The notes under the pieces: model-generated
What the model saw: the letters and a program-made list of their open reading frames with translations, nothing else
What the model was told of the DNA's origin: nothing
Database searches by the model: none
In this document: positions 25,605 to 28,130 of the stretch, one piece after another
Layout: every line of letters begins with the position of its first letter
Numbering within the stretch: position 1 is the stretch's first letter
Translations under genes and position numbers: made by a program
Assembly: GCF_040448685.1 (NCBI RefSeq)
Contig: NZ_CP159290.1
Location: forward strand, 4,340,001 to 4,404,000
DNA from: Cellulosimicrobium sp. ES-005
GTDB taxonomy: Bacteria; Actinomycetota; Actinomycetes; Actinomycetales; Cellulomonadaceae
Direction: 5' to 3'
DNA: 64,000 nucleotides

Positions 25605-28130
25605 TCAGGCGACGCGCTCGGCTGGGGCGGACGGGGTCGCGAGGAGGAAGCCCGGGGCGCCGAGGCCCTCGCGCTCGAACGCCGCGCGGACGGCGTCGGC
25701 GACGACCTCGACCTGGTCGGCGCGGACGAGCGCGATCGCGGAGCCGCCGAACCCGCCGCCGGTCATGCGCGCGCCGAGGGCGCCGGCGACGCGCGCGGCG
25801 TCCACGGCGACGTCGAGCTCGACGCTCGAGACCTCGTAGTCGTCGCGCAGCGACGCGTGCGACGCGTTCATGAGCGGCCCGATCGCGTCGGGACGGCCGT
25901 CGCGCAGGAGCGCGACGAGGTCGCGGACGCGGGCGATCTCCGTGACGACGTGGCGCACCCGGCGGCGCGTGACGTCGTCGGGCAGCTTCTCCAGGGCCAC
26001 GGCGAGGGTGGCTGCAGGGTCGTCGCTCGCGGCGACGTCGTCCGCGAGCTCGCGCAGGGAGTCCAGCCCGAGCGTGCGGGCGGCGTCCTCGCACGTGGCG
26101 CGGCGCGCGGCGTACTGGCCGTCGACGAGCCGGTGCTCGGCGCGCGTGTCGACGACGAGCAGGGCCAGCCCCGCGGCGTCCAGGTCGAACGGCACCTGCT
26201 CGGCGGACGCGACGGGGTCGAGCCCGGGACGGCAGTCGAGGAGGAGCGCGTGGCCGGCGTGCGCGCGCAGGGACGCGGACTGGTCCATGCCGCCCGTCGG
26301 GGCGCCCGCGATCTCGTTCTCGGCGCGGACGCTCGCCGCCGCCAGGGCGGCGCGGCCGGCGTCGGTCGCGGCCAGGCCGAGCCCGGCGACGTCGTCGAGC
26401 GCGACCGCGACCGCGCACTCGAGCGCGGCCGACGAGGAGAGCCCGGCCCCGAACGGGACGCTCGAGTCGACCGCCGCGTCGAAGCCCCTGATCGCGCCGG
26501 GGTCGGTGCCCTGGGCGAGGAGGTGCTCGCGCAGTGCCCAGGCGACGCCCGCGACGTACGATCCCCAGCCCGCGACCGTGCCCGGGGCCACGTCGTCGAG
26601 CGTCGTCGTCCACGTCTCGCCGGGCGCCTGGGCGGACGCGAGCCGGACGACCGAGTCCGGGCGTGGGCGCAGCGCGACGTACGTGCGGTGGGGGAGCGCG
26701 ACCGGCAGGCACAGGCCCGCGTTGTAGTCGGTGTGCTCGCCGATGAGGTTGACGCGACCGGGCGCCGCCCAGACGTGGACGTCGTCCTCGTGCTCGCCGC
26801 CGGTGCCGTCACCGGCGCGGGCGTCGGCCGCGTCGGCGCCGAACGCCGTGGCGAAGACCGCGCGAGCCCGGGCGGCGCCGTCGTCGTCGGACCACGAGCG
26901 GACCCACCCGCGCGCCGCGCTCGACGGCGCGAGCTCCTGGAGCCGCGCCGCGATCCGCTCGGGCGTCGTGTCGCTGATCCACGCGCCCATGCCGGACTCC
27001 GAGCCGGCGAGGTACTTGAGCTTCCCCGGCGCGCGCAGGACCGAGAAGACCTGGAGGTGCAGCCGCGCGAGGGTGACGTCGTCCGTGCCGCCGTCCGCGA
27101 CGGAGCGGCCCTCGTGCGCCGGCGCCTGGTGCCACGCGGCGATGTAGGGGAGCGGGATGGGGTCGCCGTCGGCCGTCTCGAAGAACCGGTCGAGGCGGCG
27201 CAGGAGCTCGAGGTAGGCGGTCGCGAGGTCGTCGCGCTCGGCGTCGGTGAGGGCCGGCAGGTCGGGCACGTCGCGTCGCGGGGCGAGGTGGACCTCGACG
27301 GGCCAGCGCGCCGCGAACGGCACGTAGGCGACCCAGTGCTCGGTCTCGAGCACGACGCGGCGCCCGTCCGCGAGCTCGGAGTCGAGCACGTCGCGCAGCA
27401 GGTTGCGGCCCGTGCGACGGTGGTGCTCGCGCGCCTCGTCGAGCAGCGCGCGCGTGCGGGGCGTGACGTACGGGTAGCCGTAGATCTGCCCGTGCGGGTG
27501 GTGCAGCGTGACGCCGATCTCCTGCCCGCGGTTCTCGAAGCAGAAGACCTGCTCCACGCCCGGCTCGGCCCCGAGGGCGGCCGTGCGGTCGGCCCACGCG
27601 TCGATGATCGTGCGCACGCGCTGCGGCGAGAGCGCGCCGAACGACGTGCGGTGGTCGCTCGAGAAGCACACGACCTCGCACCGGCCCGCGGCCGGGGCGT
27701 GGACCTGGAGCGGCGCGTCCTCGACGACGGCGTCCTCGACCCCGGGGACGCGCTGCAGCGACGGGAAGCGGTTCTCGAAGACGACGACGTCGTAGTCGGT
27801 GTCGGGGACCTCGCCGTCGGAGTACGCCGCACCGGGACGCGCGGGGCACAGCGGGCACGAGTCGGCCGCGGGGAGGAACGTGCGGTTCATCCGGTGCGCG
27901 GCGAGCGGGATCCAGTCGCCCGTGAGCGGGTCGCGGCGCATCTCGGGGCCGACGTACGGGCGCGGGGTCCCGTCGGGGCCGGGCACCGGGGCGAACCGGT
28001 CGGGCAGCGGCCGCGGGTCGTCGAGCCGACGTGAGCGCTCACCCGAGACGTACGCGGGCGAGTCGTCGAAGTAGACGAGCTCGCGGCCGTCGGCGAGGCG
28101 GGTCGAGGTGCGGCGCAGGTGGGGGTTCAT
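25605..28130 (-). CDS. galT-galK: Bifunctional galactose-1-phosphate uridylyltransferase-galactokinase fusion
   Basis: One uninterrupted 841-residue frame encodes two consecutive Leloir enzymes. Residues 1 to about 395 are GalT: zinc-site CPLCP near 90 and the nucleotidyl-transfer motif HHPHGQIYGYP near 210. Residues from about 400 are GalK: APGRVNLIGEHTDYN near 457, PFGAGLSSSAALE near 560, PTGGMDQSAS with the catalytic Asp, and GARMTGGGFGGS near 790. The junction (LQELAPSSAARGWVRSWSDD) has no stop codon and no ATG or GTG in frame, so GalK cannot easily be made alone. GalK produces galactose-1-phosphate, which GalT consumes. The start is ATG 28130, 53 bases after the DeoR-type regulator gene. 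All catalytic motifs look intact, so both activities are expected. Confidence 0.93.
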   Translation of the reverse strand: MNPHLRRTSTRLADGRELVYFDDSPAYVSGERSRRLDDPRPLPDRFAPVPGPDGTPRPYVGPEMRRDPLTGDWIPLAAHRMNRTFLPAADSCPLCPARPGAAYSDGEVPDTDYDVVVFENRFPSLQRVPGVEDAVVEDAPLQVHAPAAGRCEVVCFSSDHRTSFGALSPQRVRTIIDAWADRTAALGAEPGVEQVFCFENRGQEIGVTLHHPHGQIYGYPYVTPRTRALLDEAREHHRRTGRNLLRDVLDSELADGRRVVLETEHWVAYVPFAARWPVEVHLAPRRDVPDLPALTDAERDDLATAYLELLRRLDRFFETADGDPIPLPYIAAWHQAPAHEGRSVADGGTDDVTLARLHLQVFSVLRAPGKLKYLAGSESGMGAWISDTTPERIAARLQELAPSSAARGWVRSWSDDDGAARARAVFATAFGADAADARAGDGTGGEHEDDVHVWAAPGRVNLIGEHTDYNAGLCLPVALPHRTYVALRPRPDSVVRLASAQAPGETWTTTLDDVAPGTVAGWGSYVAGVAWALREHLLAQGTDPGAIRGFDAAVDSSVPFGAGLSSSAALECAVAVALDDVAGLGLAATDAGRAALAAASVRAENEIAGAPTGGMDQSASLRAHAGHALLLDCRPGLDPVASAEQVPFDLDAAGLALLVVDTRAEHRLVDGQYAARRATCEDAARTLGLDSLRELADDVAASDDPAATLAVALEKLPDDVTRRRVRHVVTEIARVRDLVALLRDGRPDAIGPLMNASHASLRDDYEVSSVELDVAVDAARVAGALGARMTGGGFGGSAIALVRADQVEVVADAVRAAFEREGLGAPGFLLATPSAPAERVA

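Follow-up and report, generated by a model that had tools for sequence, protein, structure and literature searches.

A single minus-strand gene of Cellulosimicrobium sp. ES-005 carries the signatures of two enzymes of the Leloir pathway, the uridylyltransferase GalT and the galactokinase GalK, which raises the questions of whether both are made as one polypeptide, how such a gene came about and what the joining would change for the cell. The window analyzed here is a stretch of 64,000 nucleotides from the complete chromosome of this Cellulosimicrobium (one contig of 4.86 Mb, 100% complete). The overall explanation that we consider likely is a bifunctional GalT-GalK chain that originated from an overlapping gene pair, would work as a GalT dimer with tethered GalK and would supply the two enzymes 1:1.

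The fused galT-galK gene and its two halves

The fused gene, delimited by profiles and genome search, occupies 25605..28130 on the minus strand and comprises 841 codons plus a stop; it begins with an ATG at 28130, ends with a stop codon at 25607-25605, and contains 0 internal stops. Pfam placed GalP_UDP_transf at residues 63-222 and GalP_UDP_tr_C at residues 235-340 of the GalT half (both above their cut-offs), followed in the GalK half by GalKase_gal_bdg (450-489), GHMP_kinases_N (525-621) and GHMP_kinases_C (739-819), all likewise above their cut-offs. The NCBIfam models agreed, with galT_1 (TIGR00209) scoring 143.3 bits (cut-off 102.1) and gal_kin (TIGR00131; GHMP kinase superfamily) scoring 254.9 bits (cut-off 226.65) on the same protein, and the combined Pfam and NCBIfam extents run from about residue 62 to 402 for GalT and from about 450 to 834 for galactokinase. 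Using Pfam, NCBIfam, PDB alignments or matches and motif positions, we assigned residues 1-400 (26931..28130) to the GalT part and residues 456-841 (25608..26765) to the GalK core, while a junction comparison with unfused GalKs defined the joining segment between them (residues 401-455, 26766..26930), all on the minus strand.

In alignments with PDB GalTs, the GalT motifs CPLC (at 92), SDH (158-160, with H160) and HPHGQ (at 211) were located, and both the catalytic HPH(G)Q and the Cys, Cys, His, His zinc site of E. coli GalT, whose metal ligands are named in the available part of PMC5081055, are present in the fused protein. At the second metal site, the same alignments place Gln360 where human GALT has His. 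The galactokinase motifs GEHTDYN (464), GLSSSAA (563), GGMDQ (613) and GGGFGG (791) follow in the GalK half. No solved structure spanning both halves was found among the 32 distinct PDB sequences matched.

Searching the host genome with the fused protein (E up to 0.001) returned the window gene as the sole match and no second GalT or GalK, a GalT family search likewise returned this gene alone, and a galE scoring above its family cut-off was located about 0.65 Mb away. In Cellulosimicrobium cellulans PW, the fused gene is 98% identical to that of the window. The initial annotation had described one 841-residue frame with GalT motifs followed by GalK motifs and no stop between them, and the profiles, motif positions and frame all agree with that description. 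Because the frame is conserved, the motifs are intact and other copies are absent, the reading of the gene as a bifunctional Leloir-pathway enzyme, GalT then GalK in one chain, is well supported at the sequence level. This sustains the part of the earlier interpretation that concerns a single two-enzyme polypeptide; the accompanying proposal of a direct hand-over of the intermediate gains no support and is taken up below.

Distribution and origin of the fusion

How widely the same domain order occurs, a check that the initial annotation had proposed, was examined in 200 genomes of the family, 17 of which belong to the genus Cellulosimicrobium (the window's own included). The junction was open in 17 of 17 Cellulosimicrobium genomes, and 15 of them gave a full-length match in one frame; in another (G146) the frame is open up to residue 759, where the contig ends, and the last (G142, a metagenome-assembled genome (MAG) of 83% completeness) has an open junction and a frame break near residue 325 within GalT. 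This break (L029, G142:C24:36465-40445) represents either an assembly error or a decaying gene. The fusion was also present in all seven genomes of the Oerskovia group (g23), in the single g11 genome and in one of four g24 genomes (G060), and the majority of the family's genera are unfused. The fused genera g1, g23 and g11 (25 genomes, the MAG with the broken GalT frame included) yielded no split copy, and the matches listed for the 200 family genomes, in which full-length ones rank first, held no further full-length uninterrupted match. Beyond the family, no further fusion was detected among 297 sampled genomes of the order (E up to 1e-60) or 396 of the phylum (E up to 1e-110), samples in which a distant fusion broken into two weaker matches could escape. 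A scan of named genomes, with patterns biased to close relatives, found 10 of 79 loci fused among the best 80 of 474 related stretches, all of them in Cellulosimicrobium or Oerskovia. All of these searches addressed the GalT-then-GalK order.

Several candidates were rejected on inspection. At two Bifidobacteriaceae loci whose matches seemed full length (G302, G315), and at three with a common open-frame length (G399, G409, G419), galT is closed by a stop and galK has a start of its own; a stop also separates the two genes in G714, G765 and G807 and at loci L042 and L043. For a match on a Tsukamurella plasmid, the annotated galactokinase gene spans the GalK part only, with no GalT gene in the (incomplete) feature table. 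At five further Bifidobacteriaceae loci (L131-L135), galT and galK are unfused: the two share a frame, and a stop and 141-264 bases precede the GalK core.

Nine genomes of the family (G002, G003, G005, G006, G009, G014, G018, G021 and G058; loci L147, L148, L152, L157-L160, L162 and L163) carry a galactokinase near that of the window and no galT_1 match, and G004 of the same family has neither a close galactokinase nor a galT_1 match. Comparable GalT gaps appear in the accessible parts of reports on Spironucleus (PMC3916229) and, by gene list, Shewanella (PMC2996990). Separately, locus L065, on a contig titled Proteobacteria bacterium BP9.bin99, groups with members of the window's family, and its public label is probably wrong.

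The unfused relatives point to how the gene arose. Of 35 unfused loci of the family plus Georgenia (a count that omits the broken MAG copy L029), 33 have a four-base overlap (ATGA or GTGA) of the galT stop with the galK start, the two genes being in different frames; across all 79 distinct unfused loci, the overlap occurs in 46 (L029 included), 25 show a gap or another layout and eight are non-adjacent. Unfused Cellulomonadaceae such as Cellulomonas cellasea (L044) and Pengzhenrongella frigida (L046) have the same gene order and enzyme families, with halves 66-73% identical to those of the fused protein, but they encode two proteins, the galT stop overlapping the galK ATG by four bases in another frame. 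Since this overlap places galK in another frame, a fusion needs a net frame-shifting indel, and the descent of the fused gene from an overlapping galT-galK pair, through an indel that brought the two frames into register and loss of the galK start, is supported by these comparisons.

A quick GalK tree (107 rows) united the fused sequences of Cellulosimicrobium, g11 and the Oerskovia group (SH-aLRT 99) and placed fused G060 with unfused g24 sequences (86 and 91). A GalT-only tree (38 rows, 14 fused) gave two state changes and rejected a single fused clade (p 0.0056); a GalK-only tree also gave two state changes and did not reject it (p 0.122); and the joint analysis of GalT and GalK rejected it (AU p 0.0007), with the g24 clade supported at 100/99 and the remaining fused rows likewise at 100/99. 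The G060 junction moreover resembles those of its own relatives. One origin for all fused genes is rejected by the GalT and joint trees, though not by GalK alone, and there seem to have been at least two fusions within one family, the second depending on one genome, G060. A simple base error behind the G060 fusion is unlikely, because neither ATG nor TTG occurs in the junction window of this genome. A single ancestral fusion with later splits in g24 is a less economical possibility, as it would need more changes and the four-base overlap would have to form anew. A mixed alignment of 70 rows (A1) misplaced the rows with GalK only; a second alignment (A2) took its place and was used for the consensus alone.

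Whether selection or drift accounts for the fusion, both stay in play, and drift is a serious rival. We put at somewhat below an even chance a neutral history, in which an indel at the overlapping stop and start linked two genes whose products were already being made jointly, and the resulting gene spread by drift, both enzymes tolerating the connection. The four-base ancestral overlap in most unfused relatives implies that little regulation was left to lose, such pairs probably being coupled in translation already, and the fact that most genera of the family remain unfused points the same way. Two fusions in one family and the lack of any split copy among the 25 genomes of g1, g23 and g11 count against drift, though neither objection is strong.

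The joining segment and a possible internal start

The joining segment runs from a short linker through the N-terminus of GalK, identified by comparison with unfused GalKs, to a variable Asp/Gly-rich stretch. Fused proteins keep this GalK N-terminus (W..W and the stretch following it) within the segment, and in several of them the Asp/Gly-rich stretch before the kinase core is longer than in the unfused galactokinases compared. Across 25 distinct fused loci, the segment occurs in 12 different lengths of 39-56 residues, all in frame; it diverges faster than GalT or GalK, with identity to the window's segment dropping to 37-63% where GalT and GalK are still at least 76% identical.

The initial annotation had noted the absence of an ATG or GTG near the junction, the Val of GWVRSW being GTC. 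This was borne out by the codons (GGG TGG GTC CGC TCG TGG), and between residues 381 and 514 the window gene offers neither ATG nor GTG nor TTG in frame. The junction windows of the 25 distinct fused loci contained no ATG or TTG in any case; 13 contained a GTG, six a CTG only, and six, the window's gene included, no start-like codon. The in-frame starts nearest to the window's junction are ATG381 and GTG514, and a start at GTG514 would delete the galactose-binding signature (450-489). ATG381, which the initial annotation does not mention, precedes the junction by about 20 codons; it shares the frame of GalK and has a GGAG six bases upstream, so a shorter GalK-containing product from this codon is possible. 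That the gene gives a mixed output, with extra starts at ATG381 or cleavage of the chain yielding separate GalK beside the fused protein, nevertheless strikes us as unlikely. The upstream GGAG and the exposed, variable look of the joining segment would favor it, but ATG381 supplies the Met of GSESGM, a conserved GalT motif in the alignment consensus, which accounts for the codon without a start function, and none of the 25 fused loci offers an ATG or TTG nearer to GalK.

Proposed working of the chain and its known counterparts

According to the accessible portion of PMC5081055, human GALT is obligately dimeric and both subunits contribute to its active sites, and for this reason the most likely working form of the fused protein is a GalT dimer with one galactokinase per subunit. 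In such an arrangement, the GalT halves would pair into the dimer that GalT needs, each subunit would carry one GalK tethered through a flexible segment, and the galactose-1-phosphate made by GalK would reach GalT mostly by diffusion. The fusion would then act mainly by locking the supply of the two enzymes at 1:1 and by doing away with the translation junction of galT and galK; it probably fixes equal amounts of both enzymes rather than piping the intermediate, and a ratio fixed in this way could keep galactose-1-phosphate lower. Galactose is toxic when galactokinase outruns GalT. A natural 1:1 chain offers a direct test of whether ratio or closeness limits galactose-1-phosphate, with the unfused relatives that have the ancestral overlap as matched controls.

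It is quite unlikely, in our estimate, that two actinobacterial lineages independently evolved GalT-GalK because a galactokinase held by GalT limits toxic galactose-1-phosphate through kinetic coupling within the chain or dimer. Substrate channeling, in which galactose-1-phosphate would pass from the GalK site to the GalT site, bypassing the cell pool, and which would be the reason that the fusion was kept, we regard as very unlikely. It is well established that one step follows the other and that their intermediate is toxic; the same pair appears to have been fused twice in one family, and the fusion was retained in all sampled Cellulosimicrobium and Oerskovia-group genomes. However, the direct hand-over that the initial annotation had proposed found no positive evidence, the joining segment of 39-56 residues is the fastest-changing part of the protein, and such variability and rapid divergence would not be favored by a fixed channel geometry; proximity alone, moreover, is predicted to help in special cases only, according to the available text of PMC6345930. 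An error of sequencing or assembly masking a stop or frameshift near the junction, which the initial annotation had named as a possible refutation near 26930, can be dismissed as extremely improbable. One Cellulosimicrobium MAG, G142, does have a frame break, which falls in GalT near residue 325; against an error stand 25 distinct fused loci from separate assemblies, all open at the junction, with 12 in-frame joining lengths and no junction ATG or TTG for a separate galK.

The reading as a GalT-GalK chain that fixes enzyme supply can be set beside several known systems. Yeast Gal10, an epimerase-mutarotase, is a natural two-enzyme chain of the Leloir pathway with partner domains that differ from GalT-GalK, and the FKP-type kinase/pyrophosphorylases of plants or Bacteroides combine a GHMP kinase and a nucleotidyltransferase in one chain, again with other partner domains. 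The E. coli galETKM operon also has galT directly before galK, but with three bases between the genes, a junction that the fused gene lacks; in the accessible parts of PMC9239205 and PMC8577784, it is at this three-base-wide junction that Spot 42 and Rho lower galK relative to galET. The G6PD-6PGL fusions of the pentose phosphate pathway likewise join consecutive enzymes and arose repeatedly and independently (PMC3148214, in the part available), but involve other enzymes and occur in eukaryotes. No natural GalT-GalK fusion was named in the literature titles and abstract openings covered, subscription papers, preprints and database records aside, and none is described in the available portions of PMC3916229, PMC3102087 and PMC2996990; databases may well hold fused proteins under one of the two enzyme names. 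As the fusing of consecutive enzymes is already known, we file the GalT-GalK pair as a new variant. It provides a small, clear example of how a gene fusion can grow out of overlapping stop and start codons, within a single family apparently more than once.

Upstream of the fused gene, a DeoR-family regulator gene (28184..28957, minus strand; 257 codons plus a stop; Pfam DeoRC and HTH_DeoR) ends 53 bases away on the same strand, and a DeoR-family homologue was present at 11 of 11 fused loci inspected. On the other side, an exodeoxyribonuclease III gene (24626-25510, plus strand; TIGR00633, 178.8 bits against a cut-off of 99.05) is convergent to the fused gene, and several relatives, fused as well as unfused, also have a homologue of it close to their gal genes.
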